A DNA stretch of 56,296 bases from positions 1-56,296 of the forward strand of contig CADDYV010000018.1 in NCBI GenBank assembly GCA_902810695.1, read 5' to 3'. The notes beneath the pieces are model-generated. The model was not told where the DNA came from. It made no database searches and saw nothing but the letters and a program-made list of their open reading frames with translations. The stretch comes from Actinomycetota bacterium (GTDB taxonomy: Bacteria > Actinomycetota > Rubrobacteria > Rubrobacterales > Rubrobacteraceae). Every line of letters begins with the position of its first letter. The stretch's first letter is position 1. Of this stretch, positions 13,156 to 54,316 are shown piece by piece. Both the position numbers and the translations under genes were made by a program.

Positions 13156-13533
13156 ATGCGAGAAGATCTGGCGAGGCCGAGGAACTTTGCGCAAGTGGAA
13201 GTCGGGCGCGAGAGCGCGGAGATGTGCCTCCTGGCCAGGCTATTTAACGGCTTCGCCAACTCGACCCGCCTCTCGATACTGCTCCTTCTGGCAGACCGGG
13301 GCGAGATGAACGTGGGTGAGCTGGTCGCGGCGCTCGGCGCCCCGCAGCCACGCATTTCCGACCACCTGCGGTGCCTGGCGTGGTGCGGCTACGTGCGCAT
13401 GCGTCGCGCGGGACGTAACGCCTACTACTCGGTAGCTGATGAGAGGGTTCTGAAGATGCTAGAACTCGGCGAGGCGCTCCTGCGCGATAACCGAGAACAC
13501 GTCGAAGCCTGCAACATCATCAAATCCGAGTAG
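13156..13533 (+). CDS. ArsR/SmtB regulator with CmtR-like cysteine set
   Basis: A 125-residue winged-helix repressor of the ArsR family. The recognition region is PQPRISDHLRCLAWCGYVRM. Cys73 and Cys77 (CLAWC) in the recognition helix and Cys119 near the C-terminus (HVEACN) match the three thiolates that bind Cd(II)/Pb(II) in mycobacterial CmtR; Cys24 is extra. Cadmium or lead sensing is therefore likely. AAGGAG lies 5 bases before the ATG. Upstream, CATATGAAGGCGTATAC (about 13092-13108) is an AT-rich imperfect dyad of the sort ArsR proteins bind. No metal exporter is adjacent, so the regulated gene is not obvious; the convergent GST ends 25 bases away. Confidence 0.88.
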   Translation: MREDLARPRNFAQVEVGRESAEMCLLARLFNGFANSTRLSILLLLADRGEMNVGELVAALGAPQPRISDHLRCLAWCGYVRMRRAGRNAYYSVADERVLKMLELGEALLRDNREHVEACNIIKSE

Positions 13534-13557: not shown

Positions 13558-14154
13558 CTAGAGGGCGGCTTTATAGCTCTCTCTGCTCTCGACGCGCTCC
13601 ATCCAGGCGGCCACATTCGGGTAGCTTTTGAGTGATATCTCCCCCTTCTCTTCCAACTCGCGCAGCCGGATGAGATTGCCCGCGTAGGCCACTTCCGCCA
13701 GCGAAAAGCTACCGGCAAGGTACTCGCGCCCGGAGAGCCTCTTCTCCAGCTCCGCGAGGTGTCCCTTCAGTTTCTCCAGCGACTCGGAGATCCGCTCCTC
13801 AGAGTAGCCCCTCTCGCGCCCCACACCGGCCACGAAGACGGCCGGGAAGAACTTGTCGTCGGCGAAGGACATCCAGATGCGGGCGTGCGCTCTGGCCTTG
13901 GGATCATCCGGCATCAGAGGTGGCGAGTCCATTACCTCGTCGAGGTACTGGTTCACGGCGTTGGACTCGTAGAGAGATTCACCGTCAACCACGATGACGG
14001 GAACCTTCCCCGTCGGGCTCGCCGCCAGAAACTCCTCGCTCTTGTTCTTGAGGTCTACCTCGTAGGTCTCGAAATCAGCGCCCTTCTCGTGCAGGACCAT
14101 CCTGGTCCGCCGGGCGTAGGGTCAATGCTGGGTGTTGTATAGCCTGATCTTCAA
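13558..14154 (-). CDS. Omega-class-like glutathione transferase with TGA at the catalytic cysteine, candidate selenoprotein
   Basis: Reading from TTG at 14154 (GGAGG 9 bases upstream) gives MKIRLYNTQH, then TGA at 14124-14122, then PYARRTRMVLHEKG in the same frame and an open frame of 198 codons to 13558. Omega-class GSTs have CPF/YAxRTRLVLxxKG here, with that Cys as catalytic thiol; the next segments DLKNKSEEF, GKVPVIVVDGESLYESNA and QYLDEV match the same family. Thus TGA replaces exactly the catalytic Cys (residue 11), and the conserved N-terminal strand lies upstream of it. A hairpin at 14094-14108 fits a bacterial SECIS. Omega GSTs act as thiol transferases or dehydroascorbate-type reductases. 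The alternative is a TGC/TGT to TGA nonsense mutation. If translation began only at ATG 14100, the product would lack strand 1 and the active site. Confidence 0.75.
14094..14108 (-). promoter_or_regulatory. Candidate bacterial SECIS hairpin
   Basis: On the minus strand GGACCA and TGGTCC pair perfectly (6 bp) around the loop GGA. Nineteen bases separate the TGA (14124-14122) from the loop. Known rules for bacterial SECIS elements are a short stem just downstream of UGA, a loop of 3-14 bases with G among the first two, and a UGA-to-loop distance of roughly 16-37 bases; all are met. Function is inferred. Confidence 0.55.
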
Positions 14155-14221
14155 ATCCCTGCCCTCCGAAAACGTATCTCGAAAACTTTTGCAATTGATT
14201 GTAACATGCGAGTCGCGGCGG

Positions 14222-14584: not shown

Positions 14585-14736
14585 ATTCCGCCTCCTCTCG
14601 AAGCTATTTCCCGAAATGAGACTAACACTCCCCGCTACAGGCCGCAGACCCGCGAAAAGTTTACGCTGGCGGGGAGGTGGGAACCGACGTTCTGGAAAGA
14701 CTGACGCCGGCAGAGAACCCCGGAGGTGTGACAAGC

Positions 14737-15846
14737 ATGGCTCAGACGCGAGACCTCAGAGAGACGATGGCATCCGTAAGTAACCGTATCGGGCCGATAT
14801 TCTCGGCGTATCTGAGCGTAAATGCCGCCCGGCCCGAGAACCAGGAGCGGGCTTACGTGGTCCGGTTGAGAAACGCCCTGGAAGAAAATGGGGTACCCGA
14901 AGGATTGAGAAAATGGATCCTGGATGCTGTTCAGGAAGAGAACCCGCAGGCCAGAACGCTCGCGATCTTCGCTGGAGAGAGCGATCCCGTGGAAGTCTAC
15001 CGGTTGCAGGTGGATCTGCCGGAATCTTTCCGCTGGGGTGAGCCGCACGTGAGCCCGCTCTCGCTTGTGCTGGAGGAACACGAACCCTACGGGGTCGCTC
15101 TTCTGGATGCCGAGAGATTTCGTTACTTCGTGGTCTCCCCACTATCGGCGGACGGAGAGGAAGACGAGATCATGGGCAACGGCTACCAGGAGCTTGACGT
15201 CTCGCCACAGACGCCGGGGCCCCGAGGGGGGATGGATCAGGATCCCATCAGCCGGCGGACCGAGGCGAACATCAGCGAGTTCTACAACGAGCTTGCGAAC
15301 CTGACGCGCGACATCACCTTTCGTGAAGGCGTCCGGCGGCTGATCCTGGCCGGCCCCGAGGAGCGGATCGCCGAGTTTCACGACCGGCTCCCCGAAGACG
15401 TCCGTAGCCGGGTAGTCGCCCGGGAGCATGTCTCTCTGGATGCGCCGGAGGGCGATATCCTGGAGCGGCTCGAAGCCGCCCGCGAGCGCGCCGAGCACGA
15501 GCGACGGGCAAACCTTCTCTCGCAGGTGCGAGAAACCGGTATCCATGGCCCCGAGGAAACCCTCAAAGCCCTCCAGGAAGAGAACCGCGTCTACCACCTG
15601 ATCGCCCTCTGGGATCTGGAAGGCGAGATGCGCTGGTGCGACAACGAAGGGCTGGCGATCCAGGACGTCATCCAGGAAGAGTGCCCGTTCTGCGGCCAGA
15701 AAACCCGCGTGCGAAACTTGAAGGATATTCTCGTGAGCCTCTCCCAGGAGAGAGGGGCACGCCTGGAGTTCCTGCGCGGCGAGAACGAAAACACGGAGGT
15801 CCTGCGCGAGGAGTTCGGGGGGCTCGCGGGCCTAACCCGCTTCTAG
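14737..15846 (+). CDS. baeRF-family protein (eRF1/Vms1-like domain)
   Basis: The 369-residue protein resembles bacterial homologues of the eukaryotic release factor eRF1/Vms1-like fold (baeRF/VLRF families), thought to act on stalled ribosomes or peptidyl-tRNA. Typical parts are SAYLSVNAARPENQERAYV near the N-terminus, EEHEPYGVALLDAERFRYFVVS, a FREGVRRLILAGPEERIAEF block, and a C-terminal segment with WCDNEGLAIQ and CPFCGQ that looks like a small zinc ribbon. ATG at 14737 was chosen because GGAGGTG lies 8 bases upstream. A strong terminator follows at 15887-15918, so it is probably a single-gene transcript. The molecular role in bacteria is not settled. Confidence 0.78.
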   Translation: MAQTRDLRETMASVSNRIGPIFSAYLSVNAARPENQERAYVVRLRNALEENGVPEGLRKWILDAVQEENPQARTLAIFAGESDPVEVYRLQVDLPESFRWGEPHVSPLSLVLEEHEPYGVALLDAERFRYFVVSPLSADGEEDEIMGNGYQELDVSPQTPGPRGGMDQDPISRRTEANISEFYNELANLTRDITFREGVRRLILAGPEERIAEFHDRLPEDVRSRVVAREHVSLDAPEGDILERLEAARERAEHERRANLLSQVRETGIHGPEETLKALQEENRVYHLIALWDLEGEMRWCDNEGLAIQDVIQEECPFCGQKTRVRNLKDILVSLSQERGARLEFLRGENENTEVLREEFGGLAGLTRF

Positions 15847-26469: not shown

Positions 26470-27993
26470 CTACCTGCGGAGCCCATAGGCACTCATCGTG
26501 CCGGCCTCATCGGAGATGTAGACCCTACCGTTGACAGCAATTGGGCTCTCCCAGTGGATGTCGCCGATCGTTCCGTCCGCGCCCTTCTGCCTGCTGGACC
26601 ACAGGTGGTGGCCGTTTTTGGGGTTCAAAGCGATCAGGGCTCCCTTCTCCGCGGCGAAGAGGACGCCACCGGCGAGAACCGGGGTCGTCGTCTGATCTCC
26701 TATCTTCCAGGACAAACGGAGGCGGGTTTTGCCGCTGCTGTCGGTGGAGAGGTGGTAAGCGGCTATACCGCAGGTTCCGGCCACGATCACCTGGATCTGA
26801 CTGCGGTTCTTCCAGATCACAGGTTGGGTGAAGGTCCCGCAGCCCGCCGAGTTTACTATCTGCAGAGCGCCGCCTACGTGTCCGGGTCTACCACTGCTGC
26901 TCATGTTCCTGCGGTTGATCAGGCGCAGTTTCCCGTCCTTGCCACCCTGTACGAGCAGGTACGGGGTCTTGCTGTCCGGTATCTTCGGCAGAAGCGTCGG
27001 GGATGCGCTGCTCAGGTCTTCATCTCGCTGCTGGAGCAACCGGTAGCTTTTCGGCGTGTAGGAGTCGAGCAGACGCAACCCAGCCGGGCTGAGGCGCACG
27101 ATGCTGTCGCCGTAGTCGTGGCCGCCACGGTTGGCGTTGTAGGGACCGTTGCCCGAGGTTGCGAACACGTCGCCGGTCGCGGGGTCTACCACGGCCCCGC
27201 CGCGTCCCCAGATGCCGGAGCGTTGCGAGGAGCATTCGCCTGGCGAGAGCAGGTGCCGGACGTTAGAACACAGGCTGTTGAAGACGCTCGATGCGCCGCT
27301 CTTCTCGTCAATGCTGACTACGTGCCCCTGGTAGGGCGGAGCGTCGCCGAGATAGCCGCTGGTCGTCATGTAGAGGCGCCCGTTCGCGATGTTCAGCGCC
27401 GAAGAACCCTTCTCCGTTTCGGGCATTTTGGTGATCCTCACCGGCCAGTGGCCACCTCTGATATCCCTGCCCGTCACGGCGTCGTACCTGTGCACCCGCC
27501 CGTCGAGGCTGTAGGAAAACACCAGCTTCTTCGAGACATCTGCGACAGGCGAGGAAGTCGTGATCTGAGGTCCCGAAGGCTTGTGGGACCAGAGGATTTT
27601 TCCGCTTGCGACGTCGAGAGCGACGATGTGGCCGTTTCTGGTCGTCGCGTAGAGCACATCACGCTTCCGGCCCCCAGGAAACTTGAGGTCGTGTAGCAGG
27701 ACGGGTGATGAGTCCGCGACTCCGGGTAGATTTACCCGCCAGAGTCTGTGAAGCCTGCCAACGTCTTTCCGGTTTATGAGCCTCTCGTGTGGGTTCACGC
27801 CGCTTCGCGCCGGGTCGAAGCCGAACCTCATCCAGTTGACCTTCTTCGACGCGGGCAAGGTAGAGGCGAGGTCTGTGGCTGGCTTCGTCCTCGCTCCGGT
27901 ACTCTCGTGGCCCTGTTCTCTACCACATGCAGCCAGAGCTACGGCCACGACCAAAACCGCGAGCACAGAGCACATCCTCACCAGCACGTCCAT
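26470..27993 (-). CDS. PQQ-type beta-propeller lipoprotein
   Basis: A hydrophobic signal of about 20 residues ends in the lipobox LAAC, so the mature protein is lipid-anchored outside the membrane. The remaining 480 residues contain repeated blades with the PQQ-repeat pattern, such as VLYATTRNGHIVALDVASGK, GGVLFAAEKGALIALNPKNG and NGRVYISDEAGTMSAYGL. The tryptophan-docking style repeats resemble BamB or PQQ alcohol dehydrogenases, but the catalytic residues of the latter were not seen, so a structural or binding role is more likely. Start: AGGAGG abuts the ATG at 27993; GTG at 27987 has better spacing. An earlier in-frame start at 28050 would add residues before the signal and is disfavoured. 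Confidence 0.82.
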   Translation of the reverse strand: MDVLVRMCSVLAVLVVAVALAACGREQGHESTGARTKPATDLASTLPASKKVNWMRFGFDPARSGVNPHERLINRKDVGRLHRLWRVNLPGVADSSPVLLHDLKFPGGRKRDVLYATTRNGHIVALDVASGKILWSHKPSGPQITTSSPVADVSKKLVFSYSLDGRVHRYDAVTGRDIRGGHWPVRITKMPETEKGSSALNIANGRLYMTTSGYLGDAPPYQGHVVSIDEKSGASSVFNSLCSNVRHLLSPGECSSQRSGIWGRGGAVVDPATGDVFATSGNGPYNANRGGHDYGDSIVRLSPAGLRLLDSYTPKSYRLLQQRDEDLSSASPTLLPKIPDSKTPYLLVQGGKDGKLRLINRRNMSSSGRPGHVGGALQIVNSAGCGTFTQPVIWKNRSQIQVIVAGTCGIAAYHLSTDSSGKTRLRLSWKIGDQTTTPVLAGGVLFAAEKGALIALNPKNGHHLWSSRQKGADGTIGDIHWESPIAVNGRVYISDEAGTMSAYGLRR

Positions 27994-28059
27994 CACCTCC
28001 TCGCATGCAGAGGATAACCGGAGCGCACCCGGTTCTAACTCGCGGCTCAACTTTTCCGG

Positions 28060-38298: not shown

Positions 38299-39408
38299 AT
38301 GGATGTAAAAGCTGCCGTTGCATTCGAGGCGGGGGAGCCGCTCAGCGTCGAGACCGTCCGGCTCGGGGAACCCAAAGAAGGCGAGGTGATGGTTGAGATA
38401 AAGGCCACCGGCATCTGCCACACCGACGCCTACACCCTCTCCGGCGCGGACCCCGAGGGGATCTTCCCCTCGATCATGGGCCACGAGGGAGCGGGGGTCG
38501 TCGTCGAGGTCGGCGAGGGGGTAAAGAGCGTCAAGGAAGGCGACCATGTGATCCCGCTCTACACCCCCGAGTGCCGCGAGTGCGAGGCGTGTCTGAGCCG
38601 CAAGACCAACCTGTGCACGGCCATCCGCGCGACCCAGGGCCAGGGTGTGATGCCGGACGGCACCAGCCGCTTCTCACTCGACGGGCGTATGATCCACCAC
38701 TACATGGGAACCTCCACCTTCGCCAACTACACGGTGCTGCCGGAGATAGCGGTCGCCAAAATCCGGGAGGACGCCCCTTTCGAGAAGGTATGCTACATCG
38801 GATGCGGGGTGACGACCGGCATCGGGGCGGTGATCAACACGGCCAAGGTCGAGCCCGGCTCGAACGTGGTGGTCTTCGGGCTCGGCGGGATCGGGCTCAA
38901 CGTCATCCAGGGCTGCCGGATGGTCGGGGCCGACAAGATCGTGGGGGTGGACATCAACCCCTCCAAGCGGGAGCTGGCCGAGAGGTTCGGGATGACCCAC
39001 TTCGTCAACCCGAACGAGGTCGAGGGAGACCTGGTCCCCTACCTCATAGACCTCACCGGAGGCGGCGCGGACTACTCCTTCGAGTGCATCGGGAATGTGG
39101 GCGTGATGCGCCAGGCGCTGGAGTGCTGCCACAGGGGCTGGGGAGAGTCCATCATCATCGGGGTCGCCGGGGCCGGAGAGGAGATATCGACCCGCCCCTT
39201 CCAGCTCGTCACGGGCCGGGTCTGGCGCGGGAGCGCCTTCGGCGGGGCGCGGGGCCGCACCGACGTGCCCAGGATCGTAGACTGGTATATGGAGGGCAAG
39301 ATCAACATAGACGACCTCATCACGCACACCATGCCGCTGGAGGAGATAAACACCGCCTTCGACCTGATGCACGAGGGCAAGTCCATCCGCAGCGTGGTGA
39401 TCTACTAG
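38299..39408 (+). CDS. frmA: S-(hydroxymethyl)glutathione dehydrogenase, class III alcohol dehydrogenase
   Basis: This zinc enzyme oxidises the adduct of formaldehyde and glutathione to S-formylglutathione with NAD+; many also reduce S-nitrosoglutathione. Catalytic zinc ligands are in [21 protein letters not shown] and YIGCGVTTG; structural zinc Cys residues in [17 protein letters not shown]; the NAD fold is [16 protein letters not shown] with Asp in GVDINPSK. Its 369 residues and [15 protein letters not shown] fit class III closely. S-formylglutathione hydrolase follows after 2 bases, giving a complete formaldehyde-to-formate path. A purine-rich GGGGAGAGGG precedes the ATG. Confidence 0.95.
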
Positions 39409-39410
39409 GG

Positions 39411-40262
39411 ATGGGCTCCCTGAAGCCGGTAGAGGAGCACCGCTGCTTCGGGGGGACGGTCGGCTTCTACCGCCACCGCTCCGAAGCCTGCTCCTGCGAG
39501 ATGGGCTTCTCGGTCTACCTGCCGCCACAGGCCGGTGAGGAGTTGGTACCGGTCCTCTACTACCTGGCCGGGCTCACCTGCACCGAGGAGACCTTCCAGA
39601 TCAAGGGCGGCGCGCAGCGGTACGCCGCAGAGCACGGCATTATGCTCGTCGCCCCGGACACCAGCCCCCGCAACACTGGCATAGAGGGCGAGGACGAAGA
39701 CTGGGACTTCGGGACGGGGGCGGGCTTCTACATAGACGCCACCCGGGAGCCCTGGTCGGCCCACTACAACATGTACACCTACGTGACGGAGGAGCTGCGG
39801 CAGACGGTCCTGGAGAACTTTCCCGCGCGCGGCGACGCGCAGGGCATCTTCGGGCACTCGATGGGCGGGCACGGGGCCCTGACGCTCGCGCTCAAGAACC
39901 CGGACCTCTACTGCTCGGTCTCGGCGCTCGCCCCGATCTGCCACCCCACGGACGTTCCGTGGGGTAAGAAGGCTTTCGGGGGCTATCTGGACCCCAACGA
40001 GGAGACCTGGAGAGAACACGACGCGACCGAGTTGGTGCGCCGGGGGCGCATCTTCGACGGCACGATTCTGGTGGACCAGGGCCTGGACGACCAGTTCCTC
40101 GGGGAGCAGCTCTCCCCCGAGGCGTTCGAGCGGGCCTGCGAGGAGGCCAAACAGCCCCTGATATTGAGGCGGCATGCGGGCTACGACCACAGCTACTACT
40201 TCATCTCTACCTTCATGGAGGAGCACATCAGCCACCACGCCGCCCGACTCTGCCGCGAGTAG
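39411..40262 (+). CDS. fghA: S-formylglutathione hydrolase
   Basis: The enzyme, esterase D family, splits S-formylglutathione into formate and glutathione. The triad is visible: Ser in IFGHSMGGHGALT, Asp in DQGLDDQFLGEQL, and His in HAGYDHSYYFI. YYLAGLTCTEETF and DTSPRNTGIEGEDEDWDFG are signature blocks of the family. ATG at 39411 is 2 bases after the dehydrogenase stop, so translation is coupled. The frame is open further upstream inside frmA, but that extension is not homologous to the family. A methyltransferase gene follows after 9 bases. Confidence 0.95.
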   Translation: MGSLKPVEEHRCFGGTVGFYRHRSEACSCEMGFSVYLPPQAGEELVPVLYYLAGLTCTEETFQIKGGAQRYAAEHGIMLVAPDTSPRNTGIEGEDEDWDFGTGAGFYIDATREPWSAHYNMYTYVTEELRQTVLENFPARGDAQGIFGHSMGGHGALTLALKNPDLYCSVSALAPICHPTDVPWGKKAFGGYLDPNEETWREHDATELVRRGRIFDGTILVDQGLDDQFLGEQLSPEAFERACEEAKQPLILRRHAGYDHSYYFISTFMEEHISHHAARLCRE

Positions 40263-53704: not shown

Positions 53705-54316
53705 TCAAGCCTGAGAAGGCGGCGGCACGTAGCCGGGGAGGGTGGCTATCCTCTCCATCCACCTGCGCACCTCAGCAAAGCCTTCGAGGTCGTAGCCGCC
53801 CTCGTGACACAAACGCGGGTACACGTAGAGCGCCACATCGGCGGTTGTGGGAGTATCCCCGACGAAGAACTCGCGGTTGGCGAGGTGGCGCTCCATTACC
53901 CCCAGCGCCCTATACCCCTGCTCGAAGTACTCCTCTAGCTCTGCTTTTCTCACCTCTGTCATCTCCACATCCCACATGCGCCACAGGCGGGGACGCGAGA
54001 GGTAGAGAAGCAGGCTGTACTGCTCGAAGAACATCCAGCGCATCACCTGCGCCCGCTCCAAGCTACCCTCGGGAAGGTAGGGCGTGTCCTCGGCTAAGTA
54101 GAGCATGATCGCAGCGGACTCGGGAAGCATCGTCCCGTCGTCGAGTTCGAGCACGGGGACCTTGCCCTCGGGGTTGACGTTGTTGAGAAACTGTGGGGAG
54201 TGGGTCTCGCCGCCTCTGGTATTGTAGTTGACTACCTCGCATTCCTTGCCTAACAGCCCCAAGAGCAGCCAAACCTTGTAGGAGTTGCCCGACATCGGGG
54301 CGGAGTGCAAACGCAT
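53705..54316 (-). CDS. Glutathione S-transferase family protein
   Basis: Residues 1-80 form the thioredoxin-like GST domain (MRLHSAPMSGNSYKVWLLLG with Ser at the N-terminal active site, then PEGKVPVLELDDG and LPESAAIMLYLAE), and residues 90-203 the helical domain (FVGDTPTTADVALYVYPRLC). The electrophile or reductive substrate is unknown. AGGTGGG lies before the ATG at 54316. Unlike the protein at 13558-14154, it uses no Cys or TGA at the catalytic position. Convergent with the methionine synthase operon; 98 bases separate them. Confidence 0.9.
   Translation of the reverse strand: MRLHSAPMSGNSYKVWLLLGLLGKECEVVNYNTRGGETHSPQFLNNVNPEGKVPVLELDDGTMLPESAAIMLYLAEDTPYLPEGSLERAQVMRWMFFEQYSLLLYLSRPRLWRMWDVEMTEVRKAELEEYFEQGYRALGVMERHLANREFFVGDTPTTADVALYVYPRLCHEGGYDLEGFAEVRRWMERIATLPGYVPPPSQA

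Follow-up and report, generated by a model that had tools for sequence, protein, structure and literature searches.

A Rubrobacteraceae glutathione transferase-like gene with an in-frame UGA, very probably read as selenocysteine at the catalytic position

Introduction

Selenoproteins resembling glutathione transferases (GSTs; COG0625/PF13409) have been listed from marine metagenomes, with four sequences from the Sargasso Sea and twelve from Global Ocean Sampling (PMC1088965, PMC2398784), and they also appear, without a function, in reviews from 2022 and 2026 (PMC9312934, PMC13188914). Selenocysteine (Sec) decoding is already known in Rubrobacter xylanophilus (PMC1794560, PMC5330540). In the literature searched, no paper brought together Rubrobacter, selenocysteine, selenoprotein and glutathione S-transferase.

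The window analyzed here is the whole stretch of 56,296 nucleotides from a Rubrobacteraceae genome of 3.59 Mb (148 contigs, 98% complete). A first-pass annotation had proposed a Sec-containing GST within it and had noted that GST-like selenoproteins were proposed from environmental sequence, as is borne out by their place in marine metagenome lists since 2005. Like the marine proteins, the one described here belongs to the GST family and has a Sec predicted from sequence. The marine set was drawn from metagenomes; the Rubrobacteraceae set comes from one family and offers host genomes, the full Sec machinery, gene context and covariation. The kind of protein is already known, and its presence in the Rubrobacteraceae seems to be new as far as the literature searched shows.

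Results

The gene and its in-frame UGA

The minus-strand frame that runs from a TTG at 14154 to a TAG at 13560-13558 has a sole interruption, a TGA at 14124-14122 (codon 11), with the residues MKIRLYNTQH before it and PYARRTRMVLHEKG after it. The in-frame TGA with GST sequence on both sides was the starting observation of the first-pass annotation, whose coordinates and description were exact. The features of the locus are as follows.

13558-14154, minus strand: gene for the GST-like protein with predicted Sec; 198 amino acids plus TAG stop, TTG start, UGA as codon 11
14122-14124, minus strand: in-frame UGA, very probably read as selenocysteine (Sec11); TGA in 14 of 14 full-length orthologues including that of the window
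14162-14167, minus strand: Shine-Dalgarno-like GGAGGG, 7 nt before the TTG start
14101-14154, minus strand: predicted beta1 strand, Sec11 and start of helix 1; missing if the start is the ATG at 14100-14098
14088-14112, minus strand: SECIS-like hairpin with upper and lower stem; from a fold of five homologues, with conserved pairing
13156-13533, plus strand: ArsR/SmtB-family metalloregulator gene, convergent with the GST gene; NCBIfam NF033788 above cut-off

Among 60 relatives and the source genome itself, 13 full-length copies were recovered, that of the window among them, each with exactly one TGA, at codon 11, and a sample of 396 Actinomycetota genomes contributed one further full-length orthologue (G372), for a total of 14. 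A GGAG(G)-like motif precedes the start codon (TTG, GTG or ATG) in most orthologues. The 13 orthologues examined for cysteine have none in the GST-like protein, and because the protein is cysteine-free, Sec11 would be its sole thiol-like nucleophile. A gene that seems to be broken by a stop is very probably an intact gene for a GST-like enzyme, with its UGA read as selenocysteine at the catalytic position. The proposal that the TGA is read as Sec gains from the machinery in the genome, the retention of the TGA under purifying selection and the covariation of the hairpin, and we put the probability of selenocysteine decoding of a GST-fold protein at roughly 0.93.

Fold, class and closest known proteins

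The Pfam models GST_N_2 (71.8 bits) and GST_C_2 (45.7 bits) score above their cut-offs, as do GST_N_3 and related models. The structure predicted by AlphaFold2 from ten native sequences, with Cys standing for Sec, is a GST fold (pLDDT 83.6, pTM 0.78) in which residue 11 lies just before helix 12-23, and the features of the GST superfamily are present as a thioredoxin-like N domain, a helical C domain and a Pro and Glu-Ser site. Pro52, Glu63 and Ser64, the residues expected at the glutathione site of GSTs, are invariant in all 14 rows of the alignment, and the active-site motif U-P-Y/F-A is without a resolving Cys. The assignment of the TGA to the site of the catalytic cysteine agrees both with its place where helix 1 begins in the predicted fold and with the Cys (TGT or TGC) found at the aligned codon in three distant homologues (L059, L075 and L076).

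In the comparison with PDB structures the best match was SspA 4qq7, which has glutathione bound (TM 0.83), followed by tau and omega GSTs. SspA (4qq7 and 6v91) is the best match in both sequence and fold (E 1.4e-38 and 1.6e-38, TM 0.83-0.84), but the present protein has a predicted Sec in the active site and does not reach the NCBIfam SspA model (82.6 bits; cut-off 314), and SspA-type RNA polymerase binding is not indicated. The omega GST GSTO1 (1eem; profile E = 4e-32) carries its nucleophile at the aligned place, and the active-site motif resembles the CPF/Y-x-x-R-T-R of omega GSTs. Differences from the omega class are the replacement of Cys by Sec, the length of 198 amino acids and the lack of the N-terminal extension of animal omega GSTs, such that the profile aligns from residue 24 of 1eem. 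The label "omega-class" is thus apt for the nucleophile at the start of helix 1, but not as a statement of closest kinship, since SspA scores higher and the tau GST GSTU23 is about equal to omega in the profile search. The best NCBIfam score belongs to FzlA (NF050814), at 91.6 bits far below the 300-bit cut-off, and the window protein differs from it in its predicted Sec.

Genomic neighborhood and glutathione context

In 11 of the 14 loci examined, the GST gene has an ArsR homologue no more than 3 kb away. An alignment of 12 ArsR homologues has Cys24, Cys73 and Cys77 in every member and a C-terminal Cys in the majority, a pattern that may resemble the metal ligands of CmtR. The ArsR-family protein has CmtR 2jsc as one of its best PDB matches and does not reach the NCBIfam CmtR model (44.5 of 150 bits). 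In several Rubrobacteraceae genomes the Cys form of a DF-family gene sits between the ArsR and GST genes (L044:3658-4023, L051:2371-2655, L055:2349-2630 and L089:2651-2929), with a match to NF049942 that is below cut-off (62 of 70 bits); the DF family is listed among selenoprotein families (PMC13188914). Elsewhere in the source genome there is a further DF-family match (C44:23505-23789), and G037 and G054, two other Actinomycetota genomes in the sample, have TGA forms of this family. A baeRF family 10 gene is also found near the GST gene (window 14677-15846, plus strand) and is conserved nearby in several Rubrobacteraceae loci (L013, L056 and L072).

The window holds a second, ordinary GST-like gene without an in-frame stop (53705-54316, minus strand), for which the best NCBIfam models are maleylacetoacetate isomerase and GstA, both below cut-off. 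An S-(hydroxymethyl)glutathione dehydrogenase (38299-39408) and an S-formylglutathione hydrolase (about 39400-40262) were read by eye from their translations, and the two genes at 38299-40262 are in keeping with a glutathione-based physiology. No PF02955-type glutathione synthetase was found in the source genome, so glutathione is a putative co-substrate. Extraordinarily high glutathione production has been reported for Rubrobacter (PMC8146576), and the route of synthesis may differ from the PF02955 type. At 27074-27164 (plus strand) ARAGORN calls a tRNA-Asp (gtc) of 91 nt, overlapping a long minus-strand ORF (26470-28050); this call is probably false.

The resemblance to SspA, best in both sequence and structure, and the ArsR-family gene near most loci are what would be expected if the selenoprotein were an SspA-like regulatory or scaffold GST with Sec as a metal(loid) ligand or redox sensor, and several known selenoproteins are thought to bind metal (PMC13188914). 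This reading is compatible with Sec decoding and competes with the enzymatic part of the interpretation only. The invariance of Pro52 and Glu63-Ser64 across the 14 rows argues for an enzyme instead, as does the bound glutathione of SspA 4qq7 itself, and we regard a regulatory protein as unlikely, though it is the alternative that survives best.

Selenocysteine machinery in the source genome

The first-pass annotation had called for a search for selA, selB, selD and tRNA-Sec in the same genome, and all four were found. The tRNA-Sec (64.7 bits, above the Rfam cut-off, anticodon TCA) adjoins selB (354 bits) and selA (519 bits), both above cut-off, in a cluster on contig C12, while selD lies on contig C23 and has one in-frame TGA of its own (KAGU). 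Two matches to the formate dehydrogenase alpha subunit in the same genome each have one in-frame TGA as well, and together with selD they indicate UGA recoding elsewhere in the source genome. Four metagenome-assembled genomes (MAGs) that carry the TGA gene (G011, G022, G026 and G034) gave no match to the tRNA-Sec profile. Of these, G011, G022 and G034 have selA; in G026, which is 75% complete, none of tRNA-Sec, selA and selB was found.

A near-cognate or suppressor tRNA could instead insert another residue at the UGA (e.g., Trp or Cys), the hairpin serving as a read-through signal, and such read-through would account equally well for the conserved flanks of the UGA. A complete Sec machinery, the in-frame TGAs at known selenoprotein genes, the Cys at the aligned site of distant homologues and an otherwise Cys-free protein all weigh against it and make it very improbable.

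Conservation of the UGA and of the reading frame

The other full-length orthologues are 62-77% identical to the window protein. No Cys or other sense codon occurs at the TGA site among these close orthologues (14 of 14 TGA). In a scan of 84,980 genomes the TGA forms were confined to the Rubrobacteraceae, and neither this collection nor the 396 Actinomycetota genomes had any outside the family. One record in the larger scan was labeled no further than Actinobacteria bacterium, but it matches G025, a member of this family. The carriers in that scan are mostly MAGs, together with Rubrobacter marinus SCSIO 52915, whose complete chromosome holds a full-length orthologue, and within the family the distribution of the TGA gene is patchy. 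Plasmid-borne homologues share less than 60% identity with the window protein.

Some copies appear to be decayed. The copy of G011 (L044:3377, G011:C411) has the TGA and hairpin intact and a frame break directly after the hairpin, that of G030 (L047) is an N-terminal fragment, and the sister genome G002 keeps a C-terminal remnant of the GST-like gene (G002:C80:2533-2667, 56% identity over 45 residues), adjoined by a DF-family match at 2720-2992, from which the gene has apparently been lost in that genome. All three come from draft assemblies, and some of these cases may be assembly faults. G030 also has a second, distant GST-like gene (G030:C105; L046:2730, L093), about 37% identical, with a TGA at the aligned codon and the hairpin AGGACCA-GGA-TGGTCCT. 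It was seen only in this MAG, which has 6% contamination, and its host is uncertain.

By segment, dN/dS came to 0.23 ahead of the UGA (codons 2-10), 0.14 across codons 12-22, 0.15 across codons 23-100 and 0.27 over the remaining codons; with dS above 1 outside the hairpin, these values are approximate. Judged by these ratios, the protein sequence on both sides of the UGA is under purifying selection. Of the two signs that homologues had been expected to give, purifying selection was seen; an alternation of TGA with TGC or TGT in close relatives was not, as Cys occurs only in the distant homologues.

A conventional ORF of 180 amino acids (13558-14100) begins at the ATG at 14100-14098, the A of which is also the hairpin's final loop base, and the functional gene could be thought to start there, leaving the UGA to end a short leader peptide. 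Such a start would remove the catalytic residue, and codons 2-10 and 12-22, which evolve as protein, supply the first strand and the active site of the GST fold. In addition, no suitably spaced GGAGG-like motif precedes this ATG, unlike the GGAGGG 7 nt before the TTG at 14154, and the orthologue G372 has ATA in its place. The alternative start is rejected on conservation as even less probable than read-through as another residue. The least probable reading, a nonsense mutation, sequencing error or pseudogene of a formerly Cys-containing GST, which a single sequence alone would permit, which the copies in G011, G030 and G002 resemble and which the first-pass annotation had named, as a nonsense mutation, its main rival, is rejected for practical purposes by the same TGA in 14 full-length orthologues with an intact frame and a dN/dS well below 1 on both sides.

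The hairpin downstream of the UGA

For the reading of the UGA as selenocysteine, a signal in the mRNA would be expected, and the first-pass annotation had pointed to a 6-bp hairpin with the loop GGA, giving its positions exactly. This hairpin, GGACCA-GGA-TGGTCC (14108-14094), starts 13 nt downstream of the TGA and has its loop at 19 nt. In the upper stem 14108-14103 (GGACCA) pairs with 14099-14094 (TGGTCC) around a loop at 14102-14100, and a bulged T (14093) on the 3' side separates it from a lower stem. The claim that it follows the rules for a bacterial SECIS is consistent with the small apical loop containing G and with the conserved pairing and covariation among orthologues.

In one sequence alone the hairpin is not remarkable and lies within chance. 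A stem of at least 6 bp with a suitable loop arises in 9.5% of synonymous recodings, 29 of 179 codon positions in the same gene match this criterion, and the folding-energy z-score is only -1.8. The case for the hairpin thus rests on comparison among orthologues. Synonymous change is the lowest of the gene at codons 16-22, which form the hairpin, with a pS of 0.07-0.12 in six-codon windows starting at codons 16-17 and a gene median of 0.57. Only four of the 45 invariant amino acid positions with four or six codons keep a single codon throughout, codons 17, 18 and 21 being three of them. The codon for Arg18 reads AGG in each of the 13 tabulated copies, while AGG accounts for only 27% of the other Arg codons in these genes.

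Across the 14 orthologues 97.9% of hairpin cells are paired (shuffled mean 93.7%, with 1 of 500 shuffles as high), and pairing falls to 28-34% when the 3' side of the stem is slid; in G372 one apical pair is broken. The third bases of codons 16 and 20 pair as G-C (10), C-G (2), A-U (1) and G-U (1), with compensatory third-position changes in the stem (CGG/GTC, CGA/GTT and CGC/GTG), and because all of these changes are synonymous they are unexplained by protein constraint. One further stem pair shows a two-sided change once. It should be noted that six of the ten stem pairs are invariant and hence uninformative on covariation.

Discussion

The ribosome would, with little doubt, start at the TTG at 14154 and reach the UGA at codon 11, where SelB and a Sec-tRNA(UCA) made via SelA and SelD would insert Sec, most probably recruited by the hairpin with the GGA loop. 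The Sec11 selenolate would then lie at the N-terminal end of helix 1, next to a glutathione site marked by the invariant Pro52 and Glu63-Ser64. Omega-type GSTs with a catalytic Cys form a disulfide with glutathione. Sec11 may act correspondingly as a nucleophile with a single selenol, giving a selenenyl sulfide with glutathione. Since the protein has no second Cys or Sec, this intermediate would have to be resolved by a further glutathione molecule or a different small thiol. The likely reactions would be deglutathionylation, thiol transfer, or the reduction of an electrophile, peroxide or metal(loid). We consider this glutathione-dependent mono-selenol mechanism the favored account of the chemistry, at a confidence well short of that for the decoding.

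A physiological role in metal(loid) or redox stress is suggested weakly, as it is drawn from the adjoining ArsR/SmtB gene and, at some loci, the gene for a DF-family redox-like protein; the role is a tentative proposal and control of the GST gene by ArsR is only putative. Equally tentative is the broader picture of a clade specific to the Rubrobacteraceae in which Sec would be the sole chalcogen nucleophile of a Cys-free GST fold, tied to a thiolate metal sensor and a high-glutathione physiology and serving selenium-dependent detoxification of metal(loids) or peroxides.

For twenty years GST-like selenoproteins have been known from lists, with no characterized example. A carrier with a complete genome can now be named, Rubrobacter marinus SCSIO 52915, which opens the chemistry to test, and as a Cys-free GST bearing a single Sec, the protein would be a clean model of selenolate-glutathione chemistry. 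Gene calling that treats TGA as a stop would either start this gene at the ATG at 14100 or label it "broken", dropping the catalytic residue in the process, and other genes of the Rubrobacteraceae may be miscalled likewise. Should the proposed detoxification clade prove true, the Rubrobacteraceae would possess a selenium-dependent, glutathione-linked enzyme that is without a characterized counterpart.
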